A stretch of 64,000 nucleotides of DNA from Topomyia yanbarensis (taxonomy: Eukaryota > Arthropoda > Insecta > Diptera > Culicidae), in NCBI RefSeq assembly GCF_030247195.1, contig NC_080671.1:2942501-3006500 (forward strand), in the 5' to 3' direction. Under the pieces are notes generated by a model. That model did no database searches and was not told where the DNA came from. It worked only from the letters and a program-made list of their open reading frames with translations. Positions 1,927-53,636 of the stretch are shown in pieces. The translations under genes and the position numbers were made by a program. Numbering within the stretch: the first letter of the stretch is position 1; each line of letters starts with the position of its first letter.

Positions 1927-2034
1927 TGCCTATGTGTGTCAGACACGTGTATTTATTTCTTCGGCTCTGTGGCAACTGTATTCATACAGAAATTATTCTT
2001 TTTCCACATAGAAGTGTATTTGAACTGTATATTA

Positions 2035-3215
2035 GAGTGCCCAGAAAAATAACGAATTTTTGAAAACTCAATCGGCCCACCCCTGAGTCGATTTCTAGTC
2101 CCACCAGGAGTACTTGCTCCAAATTTGAAGCAAATCGGACAAGTCTAGCTACCGGACCAACGTGCCTGAAGTTTGTATGGGATTTTTCGACAATTTACAT
2201 GGAGAAAACCCAGTAATTCGCATTTTCGCCGCTAGGTGGCACTATATGCGTCGTATTATCACTGTAAGTGAAAATAAGCAAAATAATTTAATTTCCTACA
2301 ACTTTGTCGAAGACTGTTAGTCAATCCGGCTTTGGTAAAAGAAGTTATTAAACTTTTAACGAAGTGATGTCTGAATCAGTTTTGCATGGGGCCTAGCAGC
2401 GCATAGTTGTGGATCAGTAATCGATTACCACCAACTATACATTTTTGTGAGATAATGGTTACATTTAGCAGAATAGTATATTCACAAGAATTGTAGTACA
2501 TAATACGAGTTATGTTTTGGTTAGAAAATTTTAGTTCCACCTGTGACCGCATAGAGGGCGCCAACACTAACTTTTCATAGGAGTGAGATAGAATATCGAG
2601 ATGTTCGGAAGAAATATTTAAAAATGCTTGCTCTACAATTTTGTGGAAGACACCTAATCTATCTCTTTTCGTTAAAAAGTTAGTGTTGGCGCCCTCTATG
2701 CGGTAAAATGTGGAACTAAAATTTTCTAACTAAAACATGACTCATATTACTTACTATAAATCTTCCGAACATACTATTGACCTAAACCTAACCATTATTT
2801 CACAAAAATGTTGTGTTCGTGCGAATCAAGTATTGATCCACAATCATGCACTGCTAGGCCCCATGCAAAACTGACTCAGACATCACTTCGTTAAAAGTTT
2901 AATAACTTATTTTACCAAAGCCGGATTGACTAGCAGTCTTCAACAAATTTGTAGGCATCTAAATTATCTTTCTTATTTTCACTCTTAGTGATAGTATGAT
3001 GCATATAGTGCCACCTAGCGGCGAAAATGCGAGTTAGTGGTTTTTCTCCATGTAAATTGTCGAAAAATCCCATACAAACTTAAGGCACGTTGGTCCGGTA
3101 GCAAGACTTGTCCGATTTGCTTCAAATTTGGAGCAAGTACTCCTGGTGGGACTAGGAATCGACTCAGGGGTGGGCCGATAGAGTTTTTAAAAATTCGTCA
3201 TTTTTCTGGGCACTC
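2035..3215. repeat. 1.18-kb foldback element with about 540-bp inverted arms and TA duplication
   Basis: Positions 2035-2576 and 2674-3215 are long imperfect inverted repeats of each other around a loop of about 100 bp. The termini are GAGTGCCCAGAAAA and its exact complement, flanked by TA on both sides (2033-2034 and 3216-3217), as expected for a Tc1/mariner-mobilised nonautonomous element. There is no transposase frame. A shortened relative sits at 49595-49986. It lies between a minus-strand and a plus-strand retroelement fragment. Confidence 0.9.
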
Positions 3216-3217
3216 TA

Positions 3218-5012: not shown

Positions 5013-6840
5013 TAGGAGTTCAAAACCCCCCCTCGTCCTGAATATCTTCCCAAAACATAGGGGTTGTACACAAATGACGTAGCTTTTTGCAACGATTTGT
5101 GCCCTCTCCCTCGTAGCATTTTGTCACAAAATTCTAACCTCCCCCTTGTAAATAACGTAGCATTTTTCCACGAAAGGCGGCCGGCTAGTGAAAAAAAAAT
5201 TAAATATGTTTTGTATTATTCTTCTGAAAACATGTGATTACAATTTTTTGCTAACTTTCATCAACATTTTCATTACAAAAGCAAATTACATACATTTACA
5301 TTACGTGTTTTATCAAATAAACTAATTGAATAAGAAAAATGATTCCTGTTTTAATCCACCTAGTGGTGCAAATATGCTTTTTTTCTTTTCTCCCATTTCT
5401 CCATGGCACAAATCGCTGGGGGATTGTGCTAACGAAAGAAAGGTCGGACATCGTCCTGTAGATGGGCAACATCGTGCCCGAAACCGGTCGACTAAAAGAT
5501 AATTTTAAGCCCTTTTTTCGTTTGTAAGAATAATAAGTGTTGTGTCCTGTCTCGCGTCGCGTTTTCACGATTCCATGGCAGGTTATCTTCAATAAAATTG
5601 TGGAAATGTCTTTTAAATTATTAGTACACCTTGTACGTATATACAATGGCTCGCCAGCCACGAACTTGATAAGCTACGTGTTGATGTTGAGAGACTTGAA
5701 ATAATAAACATCATACTTAATTAGCTTAATAACATTAGTTCAATTTTGTCTACTGGCTATCTTATTTGAATATGCGGAGGTTTTATTTCATTTCATTTAA
5801 GCCTAATATTGTGAGAGTCGCAATATATGTGAACAACGCGTAGATCCAATTTCGGAAGTTGGCCATTTCCACGGATCTTCCGGAATCCTCAACGATTCAA
5901 AATGTGGTCAAAGAGACATTGAACCACAACTCTGATTCCAATAGAATTTAATAGCAGTTAATAGCTACAACATTCATTTGAGACTAAATTTTAGAAAATC
6001 GAGTAAGAAATTTCTGAGAAGCAGATTCCGGTACCGCCGAAGGTGGCCAAAGTGGTCAATCCAAGCAATTTGGAGCACATATTATGAAGTTTTGTATCTT
6101 TTAGATAATATGCAGACTCCGTTGGTTGAAAAATCGATTTTCAGAGTGATTGTATACAGGGCCGTCGAGAGCCGCGTCGGGCCCCAAGGCTTGTATTACT
6201 GCCGGGCCCTTTTAAACCTAGGCCCTCTAGTTCAGTGTGTGAGTCCGTGGTTTCTATTAGTCTCCGGTTGACTCATATTGCCACGTCCACAGATAGCGTG
6301 CAAGACATGTGAATTTCGATAGCTTCTTATTCCGTGGTATCCAAATCGGGTAAAATTGCCATAGCTACGAGTTTTTTAATTTGTGGGTACTCAGGAATCA
6401 GTAACATCTAGCTCAAATGGCACGTTCCCCATGTTGATGGGAGATTTGTGCCTTGCCATGAATCATCTTTACATGATTTCCCTGATGGGAAGGATTGGGG
6501 AAGTGGTAAGGTTAGGAGTAAGAAATATACCCAAAAGACCACGAAGCATTATTTAATGGTTTTAGAAATGTTCTATATTCGCATACTAAACATATTCTTT
6601 ACGGTTTCATAGTTCTATAGAGATCATTAAGGCATATTTAGTGATAAAAAAGAGAATCAGTATGCCAGAATAGAGCTAGTTCAGAAGCACCTTTATGGCT
6701 GTCAGCAATGTTAATATAGAGCCGTGTTTATAAAAAAAACTTCCCTTCTTTATCGACACAGCAAAAGATAAAATTAACTTTCAATACCGTACCAACCCCC
6801 TTCCTCTCTTCTTTCGTTTCACATGCCGACTGTTTAAATT
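5013..6840. other. Gene-free AT-rich stretch
   Basis: No convincing coding region. Bases 5040-5175 contain two related segments with the core AACGTAGC or GACGTAGC next to pyrimidine-rich CCCTCTCCC/CCTCCCCC, probably a degenerate interspersed repeat. An open minus-strand frame at 5296-5661 has no recognisable domain and looks like chance. The remainder is unique-looking AT-rich DNA. Confidence 0.5.
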
Positions 6841-14282: not shown

Positions 14283-17200
14283 TGGTCGGCAATGACTAGG
14301 CAGTGCGTAAGCCTCTTGTATCTGAAGGCATAAAATAGACCCCACTTGCGGTCCTTAGCTTCCTGCCCAGTAATTCCTAGCCCTGGCCTCCTCGTGGCGT
14401 CGACTGGGATACGAGTAACCTTAGTGAAGATCGGGTAACCAACAACGGTGGGAACTTTGGTCGTATGCTGGCAGGGAAGGGGGGGTTACCCTTCTTCGGA
14501 AGGTGTAAATCTGTCCTGGTGTCCAGGTGGGACCTTAAGCAGTCCTGGCACGATGGCCCACCGGCGAGACAGGTGGTTGGCGTAGGCCCTATAAGCCGCC
14601 CCTTAAAAAACCCACATAACGAACAATACAGAAGATAATACTGGAAACTCGGAACATGGAACTGCAGATCGCTCGGCTTCGCAGGATGTGACAGGATAAT
14701 CTACGATCTAATCTACGACGGGACAGAAGGTGTGGAAAAGCGGGCATCGAGCGGCTACCTTCTACCAGAGCTGTGGGACAACCAACGAGCTGGGAACCGG
14801 CTTCATAGTGCTGGGCAAGATGCGCCAACGTGTGATCGGGTGGCAGCCGATCAACGCAAGGATGTGCAAGTTGAGGATCAAAGGCCGTTTCTTCAACTAC
14901 AGCATCATCAACGTGCACTGCCCACACGAAGGGAGACCCGACGACGAGAAAGAAGCGTTCTACATGCAGCTGGAGCAGACATACGACGGTTGCCCTGTGC
15001 GAGACGTGAAAATTGTCATCGGCGACATGAACGCACAGGTAGGAAGGGAGTCAATGTACAGACCGGTGATCGGGCCTAACAGCCTGCACTCCGTATCAAA
15101 TGACAACGGCCAACGATGTGTGAACTTCGCAGCCTCCCGTGGAATGGTAATCCGAAGCACCTTCTTCCCTCGCAAAGATATCCACAAAGTCACCTGGAGA
15201 TCACCGGACCAAGTAATAAAAAATCAAATCGACCGCGTTCTAATCGACGGTAGATTCTTCTCGGACATCACAAACGTCCGCACTTATCGCAGTGCGAATA
15301 TAGATTCGGACCACCACCTGGTTGCAGTATGCTTACGCTCAAAACTTTCGACAGTGCATAGCTCTCGTCGAAGCCGAACGCCGCGACTAAACATCGAGCG
15401 GCTACAAGATGGCAGAGTGGCTCAAGAATACGCGTAGCAGTTGGAAGTGGCACTACCAACGGAAGAGCAGCTAGGCGCAGTTGCCCTTGAAGATGGCTGG
15501 AGAGATATCCGATCCGCCATAGGTAGCACCGCAGCCACTGCACTAGGTACGGTGGGCCCGGACCGAAGAAGCGACTGGTACGACGGCGAATGCGAGCAGT
15601 TAGTCGAAGAGAAGAATGCAGCATGGGCGAGAATGCTGCAACACCGCACGAGGGCGAACGAGGCGCGATATAAACAGGCACGGAACAGGCAGAACTCGGT
15701 TTTCCGGACCAAAAAGCGCCAGCAGGAAGACCGAGATCGCGAAGCGATGGAGCAGCTGTACCGCGCTAAAGACACACGGAAATTCTACGAGAAGTTGAAC
15801 CGCTCGAGCAGGGGCCACGTACCACAGGCCGACATGTGCAGAGATACAAACGGGAATCTTCTCACGGACCAGTGTGAGGTGATCCAGAGGTGGCGGCAGC
15901 ACTACGAAGAACACCTGAACGGCGATGCAGCAGACGACGAGGATGGCACGGTAACGCACCTGGGAGCACGCGCGGAAGACATTACACTACCGGCTCCGGA
16001 TCTCCAAGAAATCCAGGAGGAGATCAGCCGGCTCAAAAATAATAAAGCCGCTGGGGTTGACCAAATACCAAGCAAGCTACTAAAACACGGTGGCGAGCCA
16101 CTGGCTAAAGCGCTGCACTGGGTGATTACCAAGATTTGGGAGGAGGAGATTTTACCGGAGGAGTGGATGGAAGGTGTCGTGTGTCCTATCTACAAAAAGG
16201 GCGACAAGCTGGATTGCTGTAATTACCGAGCAATCACCCTGCTGAACGTCGCCTACAAGGTACTCTCCCAAATACTATGCCGTCGACTATCACCAATTGC
16301 AAGAGAGTTCGTGGGGCAGTACCAGGCGGGTTTCATGAGCGAACGATCTACCACGGACCAGGTGTTCGCTCTTCGTCAAGTACTGCAGAAATGCCGCGAG
16401 TACAATGTGCCCACACATCATTTGTTCATCGACTTCAAAGTCGCATACGACACTATCGACCGAGATCAGCTATGGCAGATTATGCACGAGTACGGATTCC
16501 CGGACAAACTGACGCGATTAGTGAAGGCGACGATGGATCGGGTGATGTGCGTAGTACGTGTCTCAGGGACGCTCTCGAGTCCCTTCGAATCACGCAGAGG
16601 GTTACGGCAAGGTGATGGTCTCTCGTGTCTGTTATTCAACATCGCGCTGGAAGGTGTAATAAGAAGAGCAGGGATCGACACGAGTGGTACGATTTTCACA
16701 AAGTCCGTTCAGCTACTTGGCTTCGCCGATGACGTTGATATTATTGCACGAAACTTTGAGAAGATGGAGGAAGCCTACATCAGACTGAAAAGAGAAGCCA
16801 AGCGCGTCGGACTTGCCATCAACACGTCGAAGACAAAGTACATGATAGGAAGAGGTTCACGAGAAGAGAATGAGAACCGCCCGCTTGCATCGGTGGCGAC
16901 GAAATCGAGGTGGTTGAAGAGTTCGTGTACTTGGGCTCACTGGTGACCGCCGACAATGATACCAGCAGAGAGATTCGTAGACGCATCGTGGCAGGAAATC
17001 GTGCTTACTTTGGCCTCCGCAAGACACTTCGGTCGAACAGAGTTCGCCGTCGTACGAAGTTGACCATCTACAAGACACTGATTAGACCGGTAGTTCTCTA
17101 CGGGCACGAGACCTGGACCATGCTCGTGGAGGACCAACGCGCACTTGGTGTCTTCGAACGGAAAGTGCTGCGTACCATCTACGGTGGAGTGCAGATGGAA

Positions 17201-23948: not shown

Positions 23949-25325
23949 ATGAGTGCTGCATCTGAAAGCACCAGTGACCCCCCAGCAGCGGTAGGCATTA
24001 GCCCTACCAACGCACCGGACGGGCCATTATCGGCGATGCGCAAAGTGGTGGAGCAGCTCGATGCAATAATCGAGTACACTAGCGCAAAGCAAAACATAAG
24101 CAAGGAGTTAAAATAGAGTCTCCTGGAACTCCGAAAAACTGTTCGTGTCGCAAGACAGAAACAGCAGGCTTATGCCAAGAGGGTGGAATGTCGGGAGAAG
24201 TCCGACAGAGAAACCCAGACAGTGGCCTCCAAGAAGGAGGGAAAAGAGAAGGTCGATACGGGCACTCAGACAGTGCCCTTCACCTTCTATGGAGCAGCCA
24301 CGTCGCTTGAAGCGGCGGCCGAGTTCCCCTCGAAGGGAAAAGGCAAGGGCAAGGGCAATCGCAAGACGGCGTCGAACGCGAAGCGCCCTAGGAAGTCGCC
24401 AGGCGAGGGTGCAAAAAGCGACACCACACGGCGTGCAACCGTTAAGGTCAAACGCCGTTTGGGCGAGGTAAGCGAGGGTGAGAGTGACCTCGCTGAGCAG
24501 AGTTTTGGTACCAGCAACCCGGCGCGGCCGGGGCAGGGGGGCCCAAACCCCTGGACGCTGGTCACCAGGAAGAAGCCGGCACCGACACCGGAGGTACCGC
24601 GGCCCGCAAAGAAGGCCAAGGACAGAGGCGAGGCCTTGTGGTTGAAAACCGACAAGGACAAATATGCCGATGTCCTAAAGTCGATGAAGGCGGCCGAAAG
24701 CCTTTCGGCCCTTGGGCAAGATGTGCGTAGCGTGAGACGCACCAACACGGGAGAAATGCTTCTGGTGCTGAAGCGAGGCGCACAATCTAGTGCGGTATAC
24801 AAAGCCTTGGCCCAAGAGGTCCTTGGTGAGGGCGCCCAAGTCAGGTCGCTAGGGGCGGAAGTGACTCTCCAGTGCAAGCACTTGGACGAGTTCACGACCG
24901 CAGAAGACGTCGTCACAGCCGTTAAGGAGCATTGCGACGTCACAATCGAGCGGGCCTCTGTGCGATTGAGAGATGGACCCTCTGGCACCCAAGTAGCCTA
25001 CCTCAGGCTACTGAAGGCGGATGCCAAAAAGGTAACCGAGAAAGGGAAGCTGAAGATCGGCTGGTCGGTATGCCCTATTAGTATACCCCAGCCGCCTTCA
25101 GTGGATAGGTGCTATCAGTGCCTTGAGTCCGGCCACAAAGCATACGAGTGCAAAGGCATAGATAGGAGCAAACTATGTCGTCGCTGCGGCGAGGAGGGAC
25201 ATAAAGAGCGGGGGTGCACTAAGGCACATAAGTGCCTTATCTGCACCGCTAAGAAGCAAGCCCATAAACATGCTATGGGCGGACCTTCGTGTCCCTTCGG
25301 TGAGTTAAATAAGAAGAAGCCGTGA
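23949..25325 (+). pseudogene. R1 ORF1, gag-like RNA-binding protein with one nonsense codon
   Basis: The likely start is ATG 23949 (MSAASESTSDPP); the frame is open from about 23907. Codon 56 is TAG (24114-24116), lying in a helical KELK*SLLELRK segment where GAG would be one base away. The frame then stays open to TGA at 25323. The N-terminal half is a Lys/Arg/Gly-rich low-complexity region, the middle has the R1-type gag fold (LDEFTTAEDVVTAVKEHC, KLKIGWSVCPI), and the C-terminus has three cysteine-histidine knuckles: CYQCLESGHKAYEC, CRRCGEEGHKERGC and a third starting CLICTAKKQ. It would coat element RNA. Size about 458 codons, usual for the clade. Confidence 0.9.
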
Positions 25326-28286
25326 ACGTCACACAGCTAAATCTTAACCATTGTGCAGCAGCCCAACAGCTGCTGTGGCAGTCGGTCTCGGAGTCGAGGA
25401 AAGATGTCGCCCTCTTATCAGACCCGTACCGCATCCTTGCCGGCAACGGCAATTGGGTGTCGGACGGGTCTGGAATGGTGGCAATCTGTACAACGGGACG
25501 GTTCCCGGTTCAAGAGGTAATACACTCCTCCGCCGAGGGTGTGGCGATTGCCAAGATCAATGGTGTGTTCTATTGCAGCTGCTACGCCCCACCAAGGTGG
25601 CCAATAGAACAGTTCTACCAGATGATCGACAGGCTCTCGTCGGACCTAGTGGGCCGGAAACTGGTAGTCATAGCGGGAGACTTTAACGCTTGGGCAGTGG
25701 AGTGGGGCAGCCGCTGTACAAATAGCAGGGGTCAAGCGCTAATGGAAGCGCTTGCGAAACTCGATACTGTGCTAGCTAATAATGGCTCCGCTAGTACATT
25801 CCGTAGAAACGGAGTGGAGGCGTGGATTGATGTGACCTTTGCCAGCCCGAGTCTGGCTCCAGGCATGGAATGGAGGGTAGACGAAGGCTACACCCATAGC
25901 GATCATTTAGCAATCCGCTTTAAGATCAACTATGGTGTGCAGCATCCGAGGGCGGGAGATCCCTGTCAGGTACGCGGGTGGAAGTCCAATCACTTCGATA
26001 GCGAAGCTTTCACCGCGGCCCTGGGACTGGAGGCCAACACCGACAGTCTAAGCGGGGATGCGCTGGTAGCTGTTCTATCACGCGCGTGCGACGCCACTAT
26101 GCCGAGAAAAACACTGCCAAGAAACGGTAGATGCCCGGTATACTGGTGGAGTGCCGAGATTGCAGCTCTACGGTCAGCCTGCCTCAGAGCTAGACGTAGG
26201 ATGCAAAGAGCTCGCACCGAGGATGCAAGAGAGAACCGCCGTGAAGTGTTTCGAGCTGCGAAATTGGCCCTTAACAAGGCCATTAAAAGCGGCAAGAGAG
26301 CGTGTTTCGACAACCTGTGTGAGAGTGCCAACGCGAATCCGTGGGGTGACGCCTACAGGATTGTGATGGCCAAGACCAAAGGGGGCTCCTCACCCCCAGA
26401 ACTGTCTCCGGACCGGTTGGCAACGATTATCGAAGTACTCTTCCCGTCTCGAGCCACAAGCCCCTGGCCACCTGCACTACGAGACAGTGCGGGCACGGTC
26501 GAAATGGTGGCTCCAGTGACGAATGAAGAACTACTCGCAATGGCTAAATCCCTAGCAATGAACAAAGCTCCAGGGCCGGATGGAGTTCCAACCAACGCTC
26601 TCAAGGCAGTGATCATAGCGAACCCGAACATGTTCAGGCTAGCTATGCAGAGATGCCTTGACGAGTGCCGTTTCCCCGATAGATGGAAAAGGCAGAAATT
26701 GGTGCTGTTGCCGAAGCCCGGGAAGCCACCAGGCGATCCATCGGCGTACAGACCAATCTGTCTGATCGACACGACTGGCAAACTGCTTGAGAGGATCATC
26801 CTCAACAGGCTCACCCCGTACGCGGAAGGTACGGACGGTCTGTCAAGCAACCAGTTTGGCTTTCGGAAGGGTAAGTCCACAGTGGACGCTCTCAACTCAG
26901 TGATAAATACTGCTGAGATAGCGATCCAACGAAAAAGGCGAGGTATTCGATACTGTGCGTTAGTGACATTTGACGTGAAGAACGCATTCAACAGCGCAAG
27001 CTGGGATGCCATCGCGCTCTCGTTACACCGGCTTAGCCTACCGGTGGGTCTGTACCGGATCCTGGAAAGTTACTTCCAAAACCGCGTACTGCTATACAAG
27101 ACCGATGCCGGTCAGAAAAGGGTTCCGATTACCGCCGGAGTCCCGCAGGGCTCGATCCTAGGCCCGGTGCTATGGAACCTCATGTATGACGGGGTTCTGA
27201 GACTGAAGTTCCCTCCTGGGGTCAAGATCGTCGGCTTTGCCGACGACGTAACCTTGGAGGTCTACGGGGAGTCAATTCCTGAGGTAGAACTAACCGCAGA
27301 ACACGCGATTAGCACGGTGGAGGAATGGATGAGCGCGAGAGGCCTGGAGCTCGCTCATCACAAGATGGAGGTAGTTATCGTCAACAACCGCAAGTCGGCA
27401 CAACATGCAGTTATCCATGTGGGAGAAGTCGCGATCACTTCACAGCGAAGTCTGAAGTCTCTCGGAGTCATTATAGACGACAAGCTGACCTTCGGCAGCC
27501 ATGTCGACTATACGTGCAAGAGAGCGTCGACTGCTGTTGCGGCTCTATCGAGAATGATGTCCAACAGCTCAAAGGTGTGCGCCAGTAGACGTAGGTTACT
27601 GGCAGGCGTTGCCGTATCTATCCTCAGGTACGGCGGCCCGTCATGGTCAAGAGCACTGAGGGTAATAAGTTACCTACAGAAACTGGAGAGCACCTACCGC
27701 GTGATGTGCCTCAGAGTGATATCTGCCTACCGCACGGTATCACACGATGCATCCTGCGTGATAGGGAGCATGATGCCAGTCGGGCTGGTCATTCGGGAAG
27801 ATGAGGAGTGCTTTGAGTTACGTGGAAATAGGGGAGCCCGCGAGCGCACCAGGGTGACCTCGGTCGCCAGATGGCAGCGTGAGTGGGAAAGGTAGGTGGA
27901 CCCACCGCCTGATACCTAGCATATCGAGCTGGGTGGGAAGACCCCATGGGGAAGTTCACTTCCACCTGACACAATTCCTGTCAGGCCATGGCTGTTTCCG
28001 ACAGTACCTCCACAGGTTCGGGCACGTGGAGGTCCCAGTCTGCCCGGACTGCCCAGGTGTAGACGAAACTGCCGAACACATACTGTTCGTATGTCATCGG
28101 TTCGACGTCGAAAGAAGAGCAATGCTTGACGTCTGTGGCTGGGACACAACCTCTGATACCCTTATTCAGCGGATGTGTCAATCGGTGGAGAAGTGGAACG
28201 CAGTCTCGGCTGCTACCATCCAGATTGCCAGTAGGCTACAGGTAATCTGGCGAACCGAGCAACAGACGACGGGCACGGCTAACTAG
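25322..28286 (+). pseudogene. R1 ORF2, endonuclease-reverse transcriptase with C-terminal frameshift
   Basis: Opening at 25322 (GTG overlapping the ORF1 stop), the frame begins with the endonuclease (VTQLNLNH at the start, GDFNAWAVEWGS at about 119-130, WIDVTF at 168, THSDHLAIRF to 200). The RT follows: NKAPGPDGVPTNALK near 414-428, FDVKNAFNSAS with the first catalytic Asp at 551, AGVPQGSILGPVLWN near 605-619 and GFADDVT near 638-644. It stops at 27893, but the homologous C-terminus continues one frame over at about 27885-28286 (GRWTHRLIPSISSWVG, then a CX2CX8HX4C motif starting CPDCPG). Thus one small indel near 27890 removes about 130 residues. There is no ATG before codon 52, so initiation must depend on ORF1 translation (see findings). 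Confidence 0.9.
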
Positions 28287-29018: not shown

Positions 29019-31022
29019 GTCTTATGTATTTTGTCTTCGAAACGTTGATGGCAAGTCCAATCCTGCTGGCTTCAACCTTCAGTCTGATGTACGTTTCCGA
29101 CATCGCCTCAAAGTTCCCTACCATTATGTCAATGTCGTCGGCGAAGCCAAGAAGCTGGACGGACTTCCTGAAGATCGTGCCACTCGTGTCTATCCCCGCT
29201 CTCCTTGTTACACCTTCTAACGCAACTTTGAACAGCAGGCACGATACACCATCACCTTGCCGTAACCCTCTTCGAGATTCAAAGGGACTCGAGAGTGTCT
29301 ATCCTCTAGTGCGCGTGCTCCAAGATCCGTTGCCATACCGCCATCGTCCTCTGCTGCTTCACCGTCAAGGTGCTCGTCATAGTACTACTTCCACCTCTCA
29401 ATCACTCGTTCGTAAGAAGGTTGCCGTCTAAGGCCCTGCACATATCGGCTTGTGGAACGTAGCCTTTGCGCGAACTGTTCAGCTTCTCGTAGAACTTCCG
29501 TGTGTCGTTTACGCGATACAGTTGTTCCATCGCTTCGCGATCTCGGTCCTCCTGTTGGCGCTTCTTTCTCCGGAGGACCGAGGTTTGCCTGGTCCGTGTT
29601 TGTTTGTATCGCTCCACATTCTGTCTCGGTCCGCGCTGCAGCATCCTCGCCCGTGCTGCATTCTTCTCCTTTATTAACTGCTTACATTCATCATCGAACC
29701 AGTCGTTTCCTAGTTTTGGAATCGCTGTACCTAGTGCCGCTATAGCAGTACTTCCTATGGCGGAACGGATCTCCTTCCAGCCATGTTCAAGAGTAGCTGA
29801 GCCCAGCTGTTCTTTCGTGGGTAGTGCTGCTTCCAGCTGATGTGCGTAGTCTTGGGCAATCCCCCCGTCCCGAAGTTACGCGATGTTGGGCCTTGGCGTC
29901 CGAATACGACAAGTGTTGTACACCGTCGAGAGTTTTGAGCGCATGCATACTGCAACTAGGTAATGGTCCGAATCTATATTCGCACAGCGGTAGGTACGAA
30001 CGTTGATGATATCAGAGTAGAATCGCCCGTCGATTAGAACGTGATCGATTTGGTTTTCGGTGCGTTGGTCAGGTGATCTCCAGGTTGCTTGGTGGATATC
30101 TTTGCGGGGGAAGAAGGTATTTTGGACTACCATGCCACGGGAGGCTGTGAAGTTCACGCATCGTTGTCATTCGATACGGTATGCAAGCTGTTTGGCCCGA
30201 TTACCGGTCTAAATATTACCTCCCATCCTACCTGAGCATTCATATCACAGCCGTCGTACACCTCGTCCAGCTTCACATAGAACGCTTCCCTCTCGTCGTT
30301 GGGTCTCCCATCGTGTGGGCAGTGTACGGTGAAGATGCTGTAGTTGAAGGAACGGCCTTTGATCCTCAACTTACACATTCTTGCGTTGATCGGAGTCCAT
30401 CCAACCACGCGTTGACGCATCCTACCCAGCACTACTACGTTGGTGGGGTCACAGCTCTTGTAGAAAGTATCCGCCCGATGCCCGCTTTTCCATACCTTTT
30501 GTCCTGTCAAGCAAGTGCTACGACTTCAAAGTTGCGTGGTTGGAGTTCGTCGTAGATTATTCTGTCGAAAGAGTGAACTGCAGATCCATGTTCCGAGTTT
30601 CCAATCGTAGTCCTTATTTCGTCGCGTAGGTCTTCGCCGATTGTTCCGATTCGTATTTACTTCTTCATTGTTCGTAAAGGTTAGTTTTCCCGGGCGGTTT
30701 GTTGGGCCTTTCCCAACCCCCTGTCTCGCCGGAGGACCATCGTGTCAGCTCTGTTTAGAGTCCCACGCTGACACGAGTACGATACATTAGCCGCCTCTAA
30801 CATGGGGAACAGGCGCTTGGATGGACTCACCCTCCGAAAAGAGGAGCGCCCTTCCCTGTCAGCATACGACCATGGTCCCACCGGGGTTGGTTACCCGATC
30901 TTTCCTATGGTTACTCGTACCCCAGCTGGCACCGCGGGGAGGTAGGGATAGGAGTTACTGGACAAGAGGCTAAGGACTACTGTGGCGAACCACAGGGTCT
31001 ATATTACGCATTGCCCAGTCAT

Positions 31023-33947: not shown

Positions 33948-34179
33948 ATGAGTGTTGCGGCTGTGAATAGTTCTTCTAACAGTTTGTTCAGTCAGCCTAA
34001 GTTTCGTAGACTACGCACGCGCACGAATCTTGTGGTATACAAATCGCTGACACTCCCTGTTTCTCCGCATTGCCGTGATGTGTTGTCGTGGAAGAAGACA
34101 GACTATCTAGTGGTGGGTGTGTTTGATAGAAGAATTTTTGGCGGCACAATGGAGAATTGAGATAATGAGCTATGCCTTC
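33948..34179 (+). pseudogene. RTE-like RT C-terminal fragment
   Basis: PKFRRLRTRTNLVVYKSLTL and VGVFDRRIFGG (34000-34145) match the pattern RTKLxIYKTLxxPV...LGVFERKVLRxIxGG of RTE-type elements, diverged from the two copies above. The LTR element starts directly after it and probably inserted into it. Confidence 0.55.
34175..34179 (+). repeat. Probable target duplication of the LTR element, left
   Basis: CCTTC here versus CCTTA at 39847-39851: four of five bases agree. Confidence 0.5.
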
Positions 34180-34288
34180 TGTAGTGTAAGAAATATATCA
34201 AGTAGGCTAAGAAACCGATTGTGAATAAACTGATCATTCAGAGCCGTTTTTTCAGTAGTAACTGACGTCTTTAGTCTGGGCTATTACA
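34180..34288 (+). repeat. 5' LTR
   Basis: Begins TGTAGTGTAAG and ends GGGCTATTACA. About 96% identical to 39737-39846, with differences near 34189, 34224, 34250 and 34254. No obvious TATA box. Confidence 0.92.
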
Positions 34289-34289
34289 T

Positions 34290-34305
34290 TGGCGACGAGT
34301 GGGAG
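34290..34305 (+). promoter_or_regulatory. Primer-binding site
   Basis: TGGCGACGAG lies one base after the 5' LTR. It is complementary to the 3' end expected for an insect serine tRNA (...CTCGTCGCCA), the primer used by mag-type elements. The tRNA comparison is from memory. Confidence 0.7.
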
Positions 34306-34396
34306 CTCGAAGAATACGCGAAGATCTCAAGAATTTTCTCACAGTCCAGTTTTCATTACAAGTTGTGAAGAAAAACACTTTGACAGGATGTCCCGT

Positions 34397-34752
34397 GTAA
34401 GTAGAGTGTATATCATGATAAAATATTAGAAATTCAGAGCAATTTATTCCATGTGTTAATCCGAATTTAGAACCATGTGTTCGTTCGTTTACCTTCTTAA
34501 CGATGGGACTCAAGTCCATCGGTAATCAGAACCATCCGTTCGTTTGATTAGATTTTTCACGCTTATGAAAAAAAAAGATTCCAAAAAAAAAAAATCCTGA
34601 CAACCGTTGCTAAGAAACATAAACACAATTATGTGATGGTTACTGGGATGCGTAACCTAATTAGAAGCTATAAAAGGAATAAATTGAAACTGAATTTTTT
34701 TCAAATAAAAGGAACAGTGGAAAACTAACTCAATTTATTTCACAATATTCAG
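34397..34752 (+). other. Intron-like interval A (356 bp)
   Basis: Donor CGT|GTAAGT and acceptor TTCACAATATTCAG|C. AT-rich with several stops in all frames. Joining the flanks is phase 0 and gives the gag exon an ATG. Confidence 0.7.
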
Positions 34753-35231
34753 CTGGATTTCAATATCGTGCCTTTTATAGAAAATGGTGATGGTCAAACA
34801 AATTCTAGGTGGGAAGCATGGAAAGACCAATTTATGGCATATTTAGCCCTCAAGTCAGTTGAAAATCACGATGAAAAGTATAAAGCTCTCATGTGTTTCG
34901 GTGGACCAGATGTTAGGAAAATCGCACAAACCGCAAATTTTCGTGCGTTTTGGATGATTATTTCTCGCCAAAAATGTCTCTACGCTATGAGAGGTTTAGA
35001 TTTCGTCAAATTAAATTTAACCCTCAGGAGAAACTGGACCATTTTGTTGTGCGTCTACGATCACAAGCTGTTAACTGTGATTTTGGTGATCAATTGGATC
35101 ATATGATTATGGATCAAATAGTGTTCGCTACAGAATCAGATGGTAAACTTAGAGCCAAGTATCTCGAATGCGATAGACCTTTGGACGACATGATGAAGGT
35201 TGGTCGTACACATGAGTCCGTTAAAGCTCAG

Positions 35232-35298
35232 GTATATAAATGTAATACCAATATTATGGTTTATATTTATTAATTGATGATTGACACTGATGTAACAG
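35232..35298 (+). other. Intron-like interval B (67 bp)
   Basis: Donor CAG|GTATAT and acceptor GATGTAACAG|G. Very AT-rich. Joining is phase 0 and continues the capsid C-terminal helix. Confidence 0.65.
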
Positions 35299-35315
35299 GT
35301 TCAAGAGCTTCGAAA

Positions 35316-36245
35316 CCAACCCTCCCGCAACTTGACGTTTGGCCTAAGTTGCATGAAACCACCGTGTTTCGAATGATGTCGCCACCATAGAACTCCGTCC
35401 ACAAATTGCGATACTGTAAATTTCTATGCAAGAAAATAATTCCGTGACGTCTTTTACGAACTTGTTTTCTTTATTTACATTCGGAAGCGGTAATCAAGAT
35501 GATAATTTCAAAACAGCGTAATAGTTTAATATAAATACAAACAAGTTAATTCGTAATTTTGGATTTTCATAAAAGGATTACACATTGTGCCGAATGTAAA
35601 ATGCATGATTTGATTTGAGTGCGCTTCTAGTGAGAACTTTTTCTTCTCCCGTCGCCCTTGAAATATCTTTCGCATATTCTCGAAAGTTTGTCGTTAATCT
35701 TAAATACATTTAGTTTTGTGGTTATCATTTTTCACTTCGTGTTTAACAAAGACGGGATTGACTTCGATTGTTTATTTCTGACAGCATGCGACATTTACGG
35801 TGCAAAGGTTTCCACAAAATTCAGATCTGATGACAGCTCATTTTCCATCGGAGAGGGAGAAAAACAGTCCAGTATCATTGTGTGTGTTGTTTACATTGCA
35901 ATGCAAATATTACTACCTAATATCTTAAAACCAAATGAATATGCTCACTCACTAGCATAAACGCCGCTTGTTTGTATGCTGATGATTCCAAAAAATCATG
36001 AATCATTTAAAAATAATGCATCGGAATAAAGATGCATTATTTTTATAATAAAACAACACCAAACCCAAAAAGTCTTCAAAAATGAATTATCGGAAGTAAA
36101 AAATCTGAACAAGAAAATTTTCAATTTGAACAAGTTTACGCTTTTTTTTAGAAATTGCTCTTGAATAAAGATTGATCCGCCATTTTAGACCCACAGACCC
36201 AAAAAAAGTGGTTTCAACGATTTGTATAGGAGCTGTCAAGTTGTT
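35316..36245. repeat. Insertion of about 0.93 kb between capsid and zinc-knuckle regions
   Basis: The ends carry the inverted 9-mers CAACTTGAC (35328-35336) and GTCAAGTTG (36235-36243). Gag-like coding sequence appears to resume just right of them. No transposase frame is visible. Boundaries are approximate. It could alternatively be a long intron. Confidence 0.45.
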
Positions 36246-36951
36246 CCCCCTTTGGTCGAAACAAACCAGCATCAAATACGGCAGATATATGTCAAATCAA
36301 TTTGAAAGAAGGTTAAGTGTAACAGATGCTCCGTAAACCATTTGGAGAATGATCCAAAATGTCCAGCACGTTCTGAGGTATGCCGGTTATGTGGAAAGCT
36401 CGGACATTTCGCGAGATGCTGTAAGACCGATCGGAAAAGTTTCCATAAGATGGCTCGTAAGAATGTACCCGGAGTTAAACCATACAGTCATCAGAATCAA
36501 AACCATCAACAAACCAGGAAACAGAAGTTTATTCGAGAAGTTGACGATGTTACCGAAAAGGTCGAAATTCACGATCTGTTCCATCTAGAGGGAAAACGAT
36601 CAATTGAGGTTGATGTAGGTGGAGTTTCGGTAAAGTTTATCGTGGATACAGGCGCAGATGCAGATGTATTGAGTTTGGCTGATTGGAAGATGATAAAACG
36701 CGTTGAATTTACAGGGTTTGATGTTAGGAAGGGCAGTAACAAGATTTTTCGGGCTTATGGAAGTAACAAACCGTTGATAGTGCTTGGAGAAATAGATGCA
36801 GAGATCAAGCTTGGAAACAAAAGTTGTGATACAACATTGTTCGTTATTCAAGATGGGAAGTGTTCACTACTATCTGGCAAAACATCTGAAGCTCTAGGCA
36901 TCGTGAAGTTTCTACATGTAGTTTCTCAAACACCATTCCCTGCTATTAAAG
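36246..36951 (+). pseudogene. Zinc knuckles and protease of the LTR element
   Basis: From about 36312 the frame encodes a first cysteine-histidine motif (CNRCSVNH...C), a classical knuckle CRLCGKLGHFARCC at about 36384-36425, a basic linker and an aspartic protease with active-site VDTGADADVL (Asp-Thr-Gly at 36645-36653) and a later VLGEIDAEIKLG. The exon ends at AAAG|GTAAAG. Upstream, SPFGRNKPASNTADI (36245-36290) seems to be gag sequence in a frame one base off. The protease would cut the polyprotein. Apart from the upstream slip the region is open. Confidence 0.8.
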
Positions 36952-37009
36952 GTAAAGGGCAGTAATTTAATTTTAACTATTTTACATAATAAATAATAGT
37001 AAATATTAG
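36952..37009 (+). other. Intron-like interval C (58 bp)
   Basis: Donor AAAG|GTAAAG and acceptor AAATATTAG|AT, with a branch-like TTTTAACTATT 30 bases before the acceptor. Over 80% A+T with stops. Joining is phase 1 and exactly in frame between protease and RT. Confidence 0.75.
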
Positions 37010-39696
37010 ATATGTATGCATCGATTAAAATAAACAAATCATTCCCACCTGTAAGACAATCTATTCGGCGAATACCTATACCATTAGAAGAACTCACTCT
37101 ACTCAAATTAAAGGAATTAGAAAGCCAGGATATAGTTGAACGAGTGAATGAAGCGTCCGAGTGGGTTTCACCTATGTTAGTAAAACGGAAAACTGCGGAT
37201 GAGGTTATAACTATTTTATAATGCTTTAAATAATTAATAATTTGAAATATTCAATTCAAGGTAAGAATAATAATCGATTTACGAGAAGCAATCAAGGCTG
37301 TCATACGAGAAGTTCATCCTTTAACGACAATGGAACAAATGTCTTCTCGATTAAAAGGCAGTAAATTTTTCACAAGGTTCGCTATCAAACAAGCGTTCCA
37401 TCAACTTTTGTTGCGAGAAGATTGTCGATATATCACGACGTTTATCTCTCCGCTTGGCCTTATGCGATACAAGCGTTTAGTTTTCGGGTTATCGGCAGCG
37501 CCAGAACTGTTTCAAAAATGCATGGAAACCATATTAGGCGATCTCCCGTGGATTATCATTTTCATTGACGATATCCTAATTCACGCACCTGACGAGCGTT
37601 CATTGAAAACAAGAACAGAAATTGTCAAGAACCGTTTACGCGAGAGAAACGTAATTTTAAACGAAAGCAAAACTGTAGAATCTGTTAAAGAATTAGAATT
37701 TATTGGATATCACCTATCTGAAGAAGGAGTTAGAGTTTCAAGTACTAAGTTAGAAGCCATCTTAAAATTTCGGCAGCCTAGAACAGCCGAAGAAGTACGA
37801 AGTTTTCTGGGACTAATAACTTTTGTAAATCGTTATATTCCCAACTTATCTACTATTGCAAAACCTTTAAACACACTAACAAAGAAAGGTATCTCATTCA
37901 CATGGGCAGCTAATCATCAAGAAGCATTTGAAAGATTAAAATCGATACTTGCGAAGAATGAAACTCTTTCGTATTATGATTCACGTTTGGAAACTTTTGT
38001 CATGGCCGACGCCAGCCCTGTGGGGTTAGGAGCTGTTTTGTTCCAGAAAGATACCACTGGAATTTTTCGTGTTGTAAGTTATGCGTCCAAAACGCTTTCT
38101 GATGTTGAAAGACGGTATGCTCAGATCGAACGTGAAGCTCTTGCTTTAGTTTGGGCGGCCGAGAAATACTATTTTTATCTTTATGAAAATTTTTTTTGGC
38201 TCATTACGGACCACAAACCGCTAGTTACCATTTTTGGAGAAAGAGCAAAACCAAGTGCCAGAATCGAGAGATGGATATTGAGGCTGATGTCTTTCAATTT
38301 CAAAGTTATTTACCATCCAGGAAAAGCCAATATCGCTGACCCATTTTCAAGATTGTGTCAGGAAGATAGAAGCTTTGTTGAAAGTTTTGACGAGGAAGCG
38401 GAAAGGATAATTCATTTAATTTCCTCTGACGAAATAATCAATGCTACCAAAGACGATGCCGAATTAACCGAGCTCATAAGATGGTTATCATATCCAACGA
38501 AAAGATGGCCCAAAGTACTGTATCGATATAGAATGATCGCAAAAGATTTATCAACAGACGGGAAAATTATTTTAAAAAACAAAAAGATCATTATACCAAG
38601 ATATTTGCAGAAACGTGTTTTAGAGTTGGCTCATGAACCCCATCTAGGAATTGTTGCAATGAAGAAACGCTTACGGGAGAAAGTTTGGTGGAGCAGGATT
38701 GACTGCATGATTGAGGAATTTGTAAATGCATGTCAAGGATGTCTAATAGTTTCTGATTACTCCACAGAACCAATGATACGATCACCAATACCAACAGGTC
38801 TATGGAAAAAAGTTGCTCTTGATTTCACTGAAATTAGAAATGACACACATCTACTAGTTATTGTTGACTATTTTTCGAGGTATCCTGAAATAGAGATCAT
38901 GCCATCAATGACAGCCTGCGCCACCATTTTCAAACTAAAAATTATTTTTGCGAGATTCGGATTTCCCGAAGAAATAGTTTGTGACAATGGGCCACCATTT
39001 CACTCAGCGGAATTCAAGAAGTTTTGTAGCAATAGTGGAATTAACATTAACTATTCGGTACCATACGCACCGTTCCAGAATGGACTAGTAGAAAGATTCA
39101 ATAAAACATTGTTGAAAACGGTGAAGATTAGTGCTGCAATGGGAAGGGATTGGAAAACAGATCTACAAAATTTTCTTCTTGCTTATCGTTCTACTCCTCA
39201 TTCTATTACGAACGTGGAACCAGCAAAACTTCTGTTTGGACGAAGAATTAGAGATAAGATTCCAACAATAAATAGTGAAAAAATTGACGAAACATACAAT
39301 GCAGTTCAGGACATCGATAAAATAAGGAAAGAAAAAGGAAAAGTGTCGGGAGATCTAAAGAGAAAGGCTAAAAATTCAAATATTGATCTAGGTGATCAAG
39401 TAGTTATTAAAAATACGATCACAAGAAACAAATTAACAACCAATTTCAATCCACAACCTCATATGGTATTGAAAAGAGCTGGAACAAGATTGACTGTCAA
39501 AAACATGGCAACAGGAGCTGAGATGGACAGGCATGTAAATCATGCAATAAAACTAGTATCTGCAAATCCTTTTGAGAAGCCAGAGATGCAAGAAGATGAC
39601 AGAGCTAAAACAGGACCAGTACGACTTCGTGAAACTAAAAGACAAATCAAAAAGCCTAGTTATTTAAAGGATTATTCAATATATAGATGTAATTAA
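37010..39696 (+). CDS. Pol of the LTR element: RT, RNase H, integrase (one internal intron-like interval)
   Basis: The exon 37010-37203 encodes the RT N-terminus (RRIPIPLEELTLLKLKELES, SEWVSPML). After the 57-bp interval the frame runs 37261-39696. In residues counted from the Met at 37330: RT to about 175 with the catalytic box FIDD at 78-81; RNase H about 222-335 (MADASPVGLGAVL, ITDHKPLV); integrase zinc finger H435/H438/C468/C471; catalytic D498, D552 and E588 (35 residues between the last two); and a basic C-terminus. RT motif A reads FAIKQAFHQ where Ty3 elements have a catalytic Asp in the second position; the codon GCT at 37381 is one base from GAT. The RT of this copy is therefore probably inactive although the frame is open. 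Confidence 0.88.
37204..37260 (+). other. Intron-like interval D (57 bp)
   Basis: Donor GAG|GTTATA (weak) and acceptor ATTCAATTCAAG|GTA. About 85% A+T. Joining is phase 0 and restores the conserved RT segment (residues DE then VRIIIDLREA). Confidence 0.72.
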
Positions 39697-39718
39697 AATC
39701 ATAGAAGTTTAAATCACT

Positions 39719-39736
39719 AAGAAAACAAGGAAGAGA
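39719..39736 (+). promoter_or_regulatory. Polypurine tract
   Basis: AAGAAAACAAGGAAGAGA directly before the 3' LTR: purine-rich, the usual plus-strand primer position. Confidence 0.7.
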
Positions 39737-39846
39737 TGTAGTGTATAGAAATATATCAAGTAGGCTAAGAAACCGATTGTGGATAAACTGATCATTCAGA
39801 GCCGTTCTTTCGGTAGTAACTGACGTCTTTAGTCTGGGCTATTACA
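39737..39846 (+). repeat. 3' LTR
   Basis: 110-bp partner of 34180-34288, TGTAGTGTATAG to GGGCTATTACA, followed by CCTTA. Confidence 0.92.
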
Positions 39847-39879
39847 CCTTACATCAGAAGGCGAGCAAAGAAAGAGGGA

Positions 39880-42106: not shown

Positions 42107-42539
42107 TCATTCCTGCTTGATTCCCGGCATGCCCTGGTTGCTGCTGGCAGCTGACAGCGGATGGTGGGGCTGATAGAGAGGATTCTGCATGGCACCGAGG
42201 GTGCCGGATATGGAGGAGGACGTCGATGACATCGTGGGTAGTTGGAACATTTCACTGCTACCGGACGAGTGGGTGGGACTTTCCATACCGTTCGGGGGGT
42301 TTATCCGTTTCTCCTTCTGGCGCCGGTTGCAGAACCATACCCGCACCACTTCCTTCTCCATGCACAGGTTGTCAGCTAGGTTGGTGATTTCTTCGCTGGT
42401 CGGTTTGCTGTTGACGAGAAAGGCTTTCTCCAGGGCCACCCGGACGGAGGTTTCGATCGAAGTGCGCTTCTTGCGCCGGCGTCCCACGATCTCCGGTGTG
42501 GTGGCCGTGTTGGTCAGGGTGCTCGGGCTGAACATGCGA
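42107..42539 (-). CDS. nub: POU class II transcription factor, last coding exon (POU homeodomain)
   Basis: Minus strand: acceptor CTCTTTTCCAG before 42539, stop TGA at 42107-42109. The exon begins with two bases completing the codon left by the 52989 exon (phase 2). It encodes the linker [17 protein letters not shown], then the POU homeodomain [10 protein letters not shown]...KPTSEEIT...[20 protein letters not shown], including the DNA-recognition helix with WFCNRRQ, and a Ser/Thr/Pro-rich tail ending GMPGIKQE. Function known for the family: binds octamer-like DNA together with the POU-specific domain and regulates neural and wing/leg development. Sequence features fit nubbin/pdm2; which of the two paralogues cannot be decided here. 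Confidence 0.93.
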
Positions 42540-42744
42540 CTGGAAAAGAGGGAGATAGAAGAAAATAATTGTTATCAGTTGGGTTCTAATACGTACGCGA
42601 TTTTAGACAATATCGATTCATTAATTTTTATCAATTTCGTAAAATAATTCTATTACTCCTGGTTCGTTTGATTTTCGATTACGAAGCATTCAAAAATTAC
42701 ATTTCTGGGTTTGCTTTGAAAACTCAAGCTTGAGCATAAAAGCT

Positions 42745-49594: not shown

Positions 49595-49986
49595 GAGTGA
49601 CAGGAAAAAAATTACCCCTATCGGCCCATGCCTGAGTCGATTCGACTCAGACATCACTTCGTTAAAAGTTTAATAACTTTCTTTAACAAAGCCGGATTAA
49701 CTAACAGTCTTCGACAAAGTTGTAGGCAATTAAATTATATTTCTTATTTTCACTTACAGTGATAGTACGATGCACACAGTGTCACCTAGCGGCGAAAATG
49801 CGAGTTAGTGAATTTTCTCCATGTAAATTGTCGAAAAATCCCATACAAACTTCAGGCACGTTGGTCCGGTAGCTAGACTTGTCCGATTTGCTTCAAAATT
49901 GGAGCAATTACTCCTAGTGGGACTAGGAATTGACTCAGGGGTGGGCCGATAGAGTTGTCAAAAATTCATCATTTTTCTGGGTACTC
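49595..49986. repeat. Internally deleted relative of the 2035-3215 foldback element
   Basis: The right 345 bp match 2875-3215 closely (for example CACCTAGCGGCGAAAATGCG and CAGGCACGTTGGTCCGGTAG). The left about 50 bp are the truncated other arm (GAGTGACAGG...CCTGAGTCGATT). TA flanks at 49593-49594 and 49987-49988. Confidence 0.88.
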
Positions 49987-49988
49987 TA

Positions 49989-52379
49989 ATGGGCACACTA
50001 AGCCAGGGCCAGGGGCACCGCGATTTTAGGGGCCTGCGCTTAGGATTAATATAAAATCATTCTACAGACTAAACATCGAAAAATAGTCGCAATCAATTGT
50101 TTATAACGTTTTAGCGTGTAGGTAACAATAGATCGGTAGCAGCTCGAAATCGCACACTGTACCGTGCCCCATGTGATCAAGATGTTCGAAGGGCGCCAGA
50201 GCGATGCTGCATAACTGTTGAAACAATTCAAACGTCAATCCAACATTTCGATTCAAGTTTCGATTTATTTTTAACAACAATGCAATGAAACGTTTGGTAC
50301 ACCGCGTATACAAAGTTTGGAAGGTACTGGACCATGGCCAACCAATCAGAAAACTTTGTTTGGCAAGCATTCTGCGCATGTGGAAAAATGTCTGGAAATG
50401 GACAAATCCACATGAAAGCGTGGAAAGTGTCTTCTCGAGGTCTTACGAAGATTCGACACATATTGGCTGGATTGGCAGTTTGAAAATCAACTCTAACTTT
50501 ATCCTAGATTTTATTAACCCTCCACAGGGCGCGTAAATGGTTCAGGTATTAAGTCGACTCCGTTTAGTTTCATCATATCAGAAACATACAAAAGCTATCA
50601 TGCCTGGAAGAATACTAATTGAAACAATATAAGTGCAAATTACATCAAATATTCCAAAAATTATAAACTGCTAGTTACACATAACGGAGTATGTGCGATG
50701 AAATTTTTGCTACCCTGGATAACGTTCCAATAATGGACGTTTAACCCAACCTACTCCAACATTCCTCCTTATTGACCGAGACATTCTTAGTTCTCAAACA
50801 ACGTCTTACAACTTTCAAAGTTCATATTACACCGTTTGGAAATATTATAGAATAGCTGGTCAGCCCATTACACTGTACGCAGCTCACCTGAGCTCAAACT
50901 CGCACCACCGCATATAGTGTGTTAGGCCGTGTTTGCTACTATCGGTCAGATCGGTTAGAAAAACAAATAATCTTTCAAGATGTACTCAGTTTCGCTTGCG
51001 ATTTTAGACGATGTGTGGATATCAGCAACAACACCTGGTTGTGGAAATCTGAAATCGTCTTTCTTGTCCGTATATTTTGAAACGCACCTTTTTTTAATAA
51101 TTTCAACACGGCTGACTGATGTGGCTCAATTTTGGTTAAGGTCTCAGGGTGGCATGAAGAAGAAATGGTTCCGTAATACTGGGAATCATTTTTTGATCAT
51201 CCTACTCTACAGCTGTTCATACCTGTTCAATTATAGGGTCCCCTTAGCTCAATAAAGCCTAAGGATCCCGCGTAGTCTTAACACGGCCCTGACTTCCAAA
51301 CATGGTATGAATAATTTGTAAAACTTATTACTTATTTCTGAAAATATTGGATCGTGCTCCACAAGTACCGAATTTGAAACCCAACTCATGGAACAATCTC
51401 AAACTTGAAGAATTGTAGAACAATATCGATTGCATGCGACCAGAAAAAATGGATCGGTGTTAATAATGTAATGTTAGTCAATATACTCAAATTCAAAGTA
51501 TAGGGCTGTATTGTATACTGCTGGAGTGGATTATTATAGCTATGTGGTTTATCCTGGATATATAATAAATTTGATGCATAATATAAATGACATTCGAAAC
51601 TATAACGAAGGTTGACAGTAAGCTTCCTTTTCAGCTGAGTTTGTATTGGCTCTATATTGGCGTATTCAACTTGAGAAAGACGAGTAACAATACAGGAAAT
51701 TTCGATGTACACAACTGACTTCTGGGCTGCGCAATCTTATCGTGCCTATATCAAGTGTCACACAGCACAGCATGCGATTTTAAAAACATTCCGGAATAAT
51801 ATCAAGAAAGAAGGCAGATATCCGTTGTGTGTCAAACAAATCTGTAAATATGCCGACAATGGAACCCGAGTACCCGTCAGTTAAAAGGCTCCCAACTATG
51901 ACATTTTCCATTTTATCGTTATGGGACCATATGACAATTCGACCTTTCGAACGACCACACACGGGAACCTGCTCCGGAATGTTTGTTTCGGAATCAAAGC
52001 ACCAAATAGTTCTAAAACCATGAGATTTAGTCTTCTACTAATGCAAATTCAAGAATTTTGATACCATCAAACATAAATTCTTCAGAAATCCAAACAATTC
52101 CAATCGTATCATCATCGTGGTTGCTGTCTTGATGTTCGCAACTAGATGTTCTTCTTTGCTTCATACCATTTCGGGCCTAGCCTGATGGCACTGGTTGTTG
52201 ATTTTGAGGTACTTGTTGCAGCTATTGCAGTCCTTCTTCTTCTTCTTATTATTATTTGAACAGCAGCCACAAATTGGACAACAATTTGTGGTTCAGGTTA
52301 TGGTATTGGAGACTGATTGTTGTCTGTGGTATGCCGTGTGTTCACAAAGCTGATACGTATTAATCTGCATTTGATATGT
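49989..52379. other. Intron sequence, mostly unassigned
   Basis: No gene recognised. A small perfect stem, CCACAAATTG/CAATTTGTGG, lies at about 52268-52292. Open frames at 50101-50536 and 51780-52023 have no domain that I recognise. Confidence 0.4.
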
Positions 52380-52443: not shown

Positions 52444-52988
52444 ATGGCTATACCACGTTGGGTTAAAGCACCTGCATGTTCACCTTAAGAAATTACTGCT
52501 TCACAGTTATGTGATGCCAGATCATGTACCTTGATTTAAACATTATAAACACACAACCAAACCACTTATTTTAAGTTGTTATGCAAAATGAATCAGATCA
52601 CCTGAGACAATTAGTTGAACGTTATCAGCACTGAATGCCTGACATGATCGAACTGAATAAATGCCATGGTTCCAAAACCCTAAGTTCCATTTTCATCTAC
52701 AGCAAATATTCCACATCACGAAGGCTTGGTCTTACGCAAAAACACTGGAAGCCAATAGTTATAGTGTTTGGCCGAAGTATCACTCATCTCGATAAAAAAG
52801 TGTGCTCTAGATGAGATCGCCAATTTTAAACCGCGAGTTTCGAATCGTAATCCCGAGAAACACTTGGTTTTATGTGTTCGCATTCTAATTGACCCAGAAT
52901 TAATCTGGTTCACGTTCTCGTATGTTCCGAATCGAATTGGCTTATTGCACTAAAATGTAAAAACAAAAAAAAAAAAAATCAAACTCAC

Positions 52989-53548
52989 CCGGCCGGATTG
53001 GAGATGCTACTGTCGGCATCCTCGAGCCACTTCTGCAGTAGCGGTTTCAGCTTGCACATGTTCTTGAAGCTCAAATTCAGCGCTTCGAATCGGGAGATCG
53101 TCGTTTGGGAGAAATCATTGCCGTACAGTTTACCCATCGCCAGACCCACGTCACCCTGGGTAAAGCCGAGCTTTATCCGCCGCTGTTTGAAAGTTTTGGC
53201 AAATTGCTCCAACTCTTCCAGATCGGTCGTTTCCTCGGGCGACGGTTCTAGGGCACGAGGGGCGGCCGCATGGTGCTTCTGCATCTGTGGGGTGTGCGTT
53301 CCGGAGCTGGGAGTGGAGGGTGTTAGGATGCCACCGACGTTCATCTGATTGATGTTCGGTGGGGTCGTTTGGCTAGATCCGAGCAGGTTGGTGTGGGAGG
53401 TTGCATGGTGATGATGTAGACCAGGACTGCCGGCTGGGCTGTGCAGCGGAGACGTTCCGGAGAGATTGGCTGGGGTAGGAGTGGAGCTGGTTTTAAGCTG
53501 ATGTTGCTTCTGCTGAAGGGCCTGCAGTTGGGCCACTGCTTGTTGGAC
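52989..53548 (-). CDS. nub: POU gene, exon with Gln-rich segment and POU-specific domain
   Basis: Minus strand: acceptor TCTTCCAACAG before 53548, donor GGCCGG|GTGAGT after 52989; 560 bases, phase 0 in, phase 2 out. It starts [17 protein letters not shown], then a Ser/Thr/Pro/His-rich stretch, then the POU-specific domain from [20 protein letters not shown] through [27 protein letters not shown], to [16 protein letters not shown]. The [15 protein letters not shown] helix contacts DNA. All conserved positions are present. It is joined to the homeodomain exon across a 10.4-kb intron. Confidence 0.95.
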
Positions 53549-53636
53549 CTGTTGGAAGAGAAACGGAAAATGGATTATTAGGATTTACCGAGCAGAGTAA
53601 ATAGATCTAAAGAACTAGTTTTTGGAGGGGTCGAAC

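Follow-up and report, generated by a model that had tools for sequence, protein, structure and literature searches.

A Ty3/gypsy-type retrotransposon copy of Topomyia yanbarensis in which four candidate spliceosomal introns divide gag and pol

Copying of a spliced RNA should strip a retroelement of its introns, yet introns or splicing in long terminal repeat (LTR) elements have already been reported for Ogre, copia, BARE, and Cer1. Here, we analyzed a 64-kb stretch of the mosquito Topomyia yanbarensis genome (contig NC_080671.1; hereafter, the window), which carries on its + strand, at positions 34180-39846, an LTR retrotransposon copy whose gag and pol are divided by four intron-like intervals. 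With a probability of roughly 0.6, judged from the DNA sequence, this would be a dead Ty3/gypsy copy from a lineage carrying four spliceosomal introns, templated by full-length unspliced RNA.

The plant element Ogre is likewise of Ty3/gypsy type, and its transcripts are cited as being spliced between open reading frames (ORFs) (PMC3735527, PMC12786077). However, the LTRs of Ogre exceed 5,000 bp and its gag is preceded by an additional ORF (PMC1142308), whereas the mosquito element has LTRs of ~110 bp (109 and 110 bp), a leader of 99 bp between the 5' LTR and the ATG, and four intervals, one of which parts the start codon from gag. In 2005, introns upstream of gag were stated to be unreported for any LTR retroelement (PMC1142308). 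BARE and copia resemble the mosquito element in that splicing parts RNA pools or products, the RNAs for translation and replication of BARE being distinct (PMC3735527); on the other hand, both are of Ty1/copia type, and the one facultative intron of BARE leads to a Gag-only mRNA, whereas in the mosquito element splicing would be needed for Gag-Pol itself. The Ty3/gypsy element Cer1 of C. elegans requires its own protein CERV, the product of a five-exon spliced mRNA, for export of the unspliced genomic RNA (PMC10309623), but its Gag and Pol come from unspliced RNA, which in the mosquito element would encode neither. In Drosophila, control of transposon splicing linked to PIWI-interacting RNAs (piRNAs) and Piwi is described for gypsy and the P element (PMC7776569), although gypsy splicing yields the env mRNA and P is a DNA transposon.

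Among mosquitoes, the Mag elements of Culex quinquefasciatus have short LTRs, a primer-binding site (PBS) for tRNA-Leu or tRNA-Ser, and target-site duplications (TSDs) of 4-5 bp (PMC3286476), and they share with the T. yanbarensis element the Ty3/gypsy class, short LTRs, and short TSDs. They differ in that the table rows available from that paper give one or two ORFs, and the intron passages seen in it (12 of 25 places) concern host genes (PMC3286476). For Anopheles gambiae, all eight mentions of 'intron' or 'splic' in PMC3026039 refer to insertion sites or lineage counts, and neither word occurs in PMC3212995. Among the titles and abstract openings of the literature matches listed, whose coverage does not imply absence, we found no animal LTR element with introns running through both gag and pol.

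All four intervals of the T. yanbarensis copy start with GT, end with AG, and contain at least one stop codon in each of the three + frames. Their AT content amounts to 0.69, 0.78, 0.83, and 0.86 (intervals 1 to 4), compared with 0.59-0.63 in the four coding stretches measured and 0.64-0.66 in the flanks and in a ~0.93-kb foreign-looking block within gag. Ahead of interval 1, a three-codon exon provides the ATG and abuts a GTAAGT donor, while unspliced reading from this ATG (34388) yields an ORF of 13 codons. An earlier note on this DNA, which had proposed the introns, was borne out in the GT and AG ends at the stated bases, the presence of stops, the high AT content and 57-67 bp length of three of the intervals, and the ATG exon with its donor. 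The corresponding intron sites would lie at the start of gag, within gag, at the boundary between protease and reverse transcriptase (RT), and at the RT start.

Splice donors were scored with an approximate matrix and ranked among the 274 GT sites of the element, and acceptors with an equally approximate one among its 345 AG sites. Against this local background, three of the four intervals (1, 2, and 3) have a good donor, within the top 7 of 274, and one has a top acceptor (interval 1, position 34752, first of 345). A rule-based scan of the 64 kb (donor of at least 6 bits, length of 50-80 bp, AT content of at least 0.75, and an AG end) returned five + strand and 10 - strand pairs; four of the five + strand pairs lie inside the element, where their donors are 35232 and 36952 alone, namely those of intervals 2 and 3. 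When the element was resampled from its own dinucleotides (n = 300), it contained 0.15 intron-like donors on average and at least two in 2 of the 300 replicates, a test that leans in favor of introns because its thresholds were chosen once the donor scores were known.

Several observations weigh against introns. In shuffles, GT..AG at the exact length turns up at frequencies of 0.052 (interval 2), 0.31 (interval 3), and 0.14 (interval 4), and bare GT..AG is weak evidence by itself because shuffles meet it this often. The donor of interval 4 ranks only 64 of 274, the strongest donor of the element being instead at 37261, the first base past that interval; the acceptors of intervals 2 to 4 are unremarkable (63, 89, and 32 of 345); and one of the 10 - strand pairs from the scan also falls within the element. 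Only a few codons follow interval 2 before the block inserted in gag, and all intron evidence comes from the DNA sequence of a single, defective copy. Furthermore, this copy harbors a foldback insert and the ~0.93-kb block along with a frame change, which evidences that unspliced insertions do occur there. The intervals might likewise be AT-rich insertions private to this copy, or products of its decay, and thus intron look-alikes that are left unspliced. This damage would fit such an origin, as would the frequent GT..AG of intervals 3 and 4 in shuffles and the ordinary donor 4 and acceptors 2 to 4, but we consider it unlikely in view of the three high-ranking donors and the first-ranked acceptor, the scarcity of resampled elements with two or more donors, the three lengths confined to 57-67 bp, and the exact RT spacing at interval 4 described below. 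Two further ideas were set aside: intervals 2, 3, and 4 are unconvincing as mutual copies, their pairwise scores being matched by 777, 184, and 30 of 1000 shuffles, and structured RNA in the leader plus interval 1 found no support (z -0.29).

Protein continuity at the junction of interval 4 could be compared with a relative. A tblastn search of plasmid records with pol retrieved NZ_CP087956.1 (E 1e-57), a circular record of 5,332 bp that is classed as a plasmid of Wolbachia from a moth, Corcyra cephalonica, with annotated protease, RT, and RNase H-like genes. The protease, RT, RNase H, and integrase that it encodes (1-5332) are similar to the mosquito pol, and it is probably the moth's own Ty3-type retrotransposon assembled as a circle. 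Separate local alignments of the two mosquito RT pieces to this element were equaled by 1/1000 and 0/1000 shuffles. Searches of PDB with the 64-residue N-terminal piece returned zero matches. In the unbroken moth RT, 16 residues, both ends counted, lead from the N-terminal-motif Trp up to the Arg equivalent to residue 2 of the last mosquito piece; in the mosquito element, the Trp opens a run of 14 residues that closes the fourth exon, and Val-Arg follows, giving the same spacing of 16. This continuity was judged by the spacing of separately aligned pieces, and the exact fit is an ungapped count; against it, the program alignment gaps the short piece and renders the junction one residue longer than in the moth. 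The relative covers the interval 4 junction only, while the case for the junctions of intervals 1 to 3 is made by open frames and splice signals. The earlier claim that the frame is kept where Ty3 proteins are continuous would hold at interval 4 under the ungapped count; gag has extra breaks.

Spliceosomal introns are, in our judgment, probably the best account of the four intervals. Near-identical LTRs enclose them (three substitutions and one indel apart; 96.4% identity by blastn) and, as LTRs, arise together with the interior in a single round of reverse transcription; in the simplest reading, the intervals would for this reason have been present in the RNA that was reverse transcribed. Inheritance through the template is judged likelier than four later gains, in a single copy, of GT..AG stretches that fit the frame, and it would entail that the template, a full-length RNA, was unspliced at all four sites. 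Gag-Pol, on the other hand, would need spliced RNA as its sole source, because the ATG exon is split from gag, the unspliced ORF is so short, and every interval contains stops. On this reading, splicing would take place, other members of the family would carry the introns, and export and packaging would act on unspliced RNA. The proposal of the earlier note that introns separate an unspliced genomic RNA from a spliced coding mRNA is partly supported by splice signals, LTRs, and the interval 4 spacing, with the reservation that these come from one defective copy. We hold more tentatively, at slightly less than even odds, that, in an insect Ty3/gypsy family, removal of four introns from the mRNA is indispensable for making Gag and Pol while transposition takes fully unspliced RNA, with splicing as an obligatory switch. 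Tissue- or piRNA-controlled operation of such a switch would be speculation by analogy.

As to its present state, the copy is dead because of the gag frame change, the ~0.93-kb block, and an Ala in RT motif A. All four interruptions listed in the earlier note were found, but that note put the case too strongly, its list lacking these three lesions, the foldback insert, and a stop codon at 35374-35376. The ORFs 34729-35106 and 34917-35273 of gag are in different frames, the frame past interval 2 ends at that stop, and it is not until 36306 that the zinc-knuckle piece begins to be open. The gag block is flanked by a 12-bp near-repeat (35310-35321 and 36256-36267; 11 of 12 bases equal), a pair of a kind seen in 13/500 shuffles, and its interior contains two collinear inverted 9-mers, whereas plain local alignment of its arms was not significant (76/500 shuffles). 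We tentatively regard it as a DNA-transposon-like insertion; its reading as a fifth intron was set aside on its end repeats, a judgment made with the splice sites unscored. Interval 1 was probably shorter before the foldback insertion, since the insert lies inside it. The foldback insert, the gag block, and the gag frame change would most likely postdate integration, while the motif-A change may be older. With its motif-A Asp replaced by Ala, the RT of this copy should be inactive.

This last substitution would also suit a lineage with real introns that is non-autonomous or a relic, moved in trans by intron-free relatives and with splicing playing no role in its own replication, and the Culex Mag elements with one or two ORFs in the available part of the published table (PMC3286476) point the same way. 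However, the pol frame of 811 residues (37261..39696) is open apart from the motif-A substitution, and the Ala may have arisen after integration, rendering this explanation quite improbable. Loss of the catalytic Asp would fit a non-enzymatic role as well, and together with the multi-exon layout it could suggest a retroelement-derived host gene that acquired introns and retains its LTRs as relics, the alternative offered in the earlier note. We regard this as very improbable: the LTRs are near-identical, primer site, polypurine tract, and a near-perfect target duplication are kept, and gag lies in two frames and is further split by the ~0.93-kb block.

Both LTRs, the primer site (TTGGCGACGAG), and the polypurine tract (AAGGAAGAGA) were found as previously noted (Table 1). 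Pfam matches above cut-off in the last piece of pol comprise RT, RNase H, H2C2, and integrase core, and the closest solved-structure match of pol in PDB is Ty3. The domain order (protease-like, RT, RNase H, integrase) is that of Ty3/gypsy elements by Pfam and PDB, the protease matches being below curated cut-offs. On the strength of these domains and of Ty3 as best PDB relative, the sequence places the element among Ty3/gypsy LTR retrotransposons. TTGGCGACGAG resembles a primer site and may pair with tRNA-Ser; tRNA scans of the window and of 200 kb sampled from the genome found zero tRNA genes to compare with it. The element is probably Mag-type, given that its LTRs are short and its primer site Ser-like, as in Culex Mag.

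Table 1. Features of the retrotransposon copy, in window coordinates
Feature	Positions	Strand	Evidence
Left target duplication copy, CCTTC	34175..34179	.	4/5 bases equal to right copy
5' LTR, 109 bp	34180..34288	+	blastn, 96.4% vs 3' LTR
Primer-site-like TTGGCGACGAG, directly 3' of 5' LTR	34289..34299	+	sequence
Three-codon first exon with ATG	34388..34396	+	sequence
Interval 1, intron-like, 356 bp	34397..34752	+	donor rank 3/274, acceptor rank 1/345
Foldback insert within interval 1	34430..34697	+	arms 34430-34450 and 34676-34697; arm score in 2/500 shuffles
Gag-like N-terminal frame, different frame from next piece	34753..35106	+	open frame; no Pfam match
Gag capsid-like frame entering interval 2	34917..35231	+	open frame; weak PNMA match, E 0.012, below cut-off
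Interval 2, intron-like, 67 bp, phase 0	35232..35298	+	donor rank 7/274, acceptor rank 63/345; found by rule scans
Short open stretch past interval 2, mostly inserted block except first codons	35299..35373	+	sequence
Foreign-looking DNA in gag, ~0.93 kb	35322..36255	.	flanking near-repeats, inverted 9-mers
Zinc knuckle and protease-like piece	36306..36951	+	Pfam Asp_protease_2 E 1.6e-4, zf-CCHC E 0.0096, both below curated cut-offs
Interval 3, intron-like, 58 bp, phase 1	36952..37009	+	donor rank 5/274, acceptor rank 89/345; found by rule scans
N-terminal RT piece	37010..37203	+	local alignment to moth element RT, 1/1000 shuffles equal it; no PDB match
Interval 4, intron-like, 57 bp, phase 0, weak donor	37204..37260	+	donor rank 64/274, acceptor rank 32/345; RT spacing
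Remainder of pol (RT, RNase H, integrase), through the stop codon	37261..39696	+	Pfam, PDB
RT motif A, Ala replaces catalytic Asp	37381..37383	+	alignments to Ty3, CaMV-type RT, moth element
Polypurine tract AAGGAAGAGA, directly 5' of 3' LTR	39727..39736	+	sequence
3' LTR, 110 bp	39737..39846	+	blastn vs 5' LTR
Right target duplication copy, CCTTA	39847..39851	.	4/5 bases equal to left copy

Within the window, each LTR matches only its partner, and the five protein pieces have no second match below E 0.03; likewise, 200 kb sampled from the home genome gave zero matches to the five pieces or to the element DNA. Five scans of viral contigs revealed no relative, a phage search with pol retrieved only one insertion-sequence match, and a plasmid search with the protease piece returned none. 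A pattern search of genome contigs yielded one apparent chance match in a bacterium and one broken element lacking a usable RT start. Two records of Bacillus licheniformis plasmids from chicken ileum (NZ_CP065944.1, 11485-14088; NZ_CP065945.1, 13810-14496) match pol at 24-27% identity, and possibly contain host retroelement sequence.

Elsewhere in the window, a homeodomain exon (42107-42571) and a POU-domain exon (52985-53584), both on the - strand and identified by Pfam, apparently belong to one host gene of the nubbin/Pdm type; past the homeodomain exon, at a distance of ~2.3 kb and on the other strand, lies the retrotransposon. A non-LTR retrotransposon (24117-27895, +) has two long overlapping ORFs: zinc-knuckle-like repeats are visible by eye in the first, and the second encodes endonuclease and RT domains. 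Oppositely oriented and diverged, two LINE-like copies (14351-15973 and 29311-30977; 69-75% in alignment) have drz-agam-1 ribozymes (Rfam) beside their ends, at 14364-14480 (+) and 30850-30964 (-). A ~350-bp repeat of ~92% identity occurs at 2031-2377, 2873-3223, and 49644-49994, the first two units being inverted relative to each other and ~500 bases apart.

If the introns are real, a lineage with several of them in gag and pol would need a strict split between packaged and translated RNA, and every new copy would record the RNA pool that was reverse transcribed. Splicing would then offer the host an obvious means of control, of the kind reported for the P element and gypsy of Drosophila (PMC7776569).

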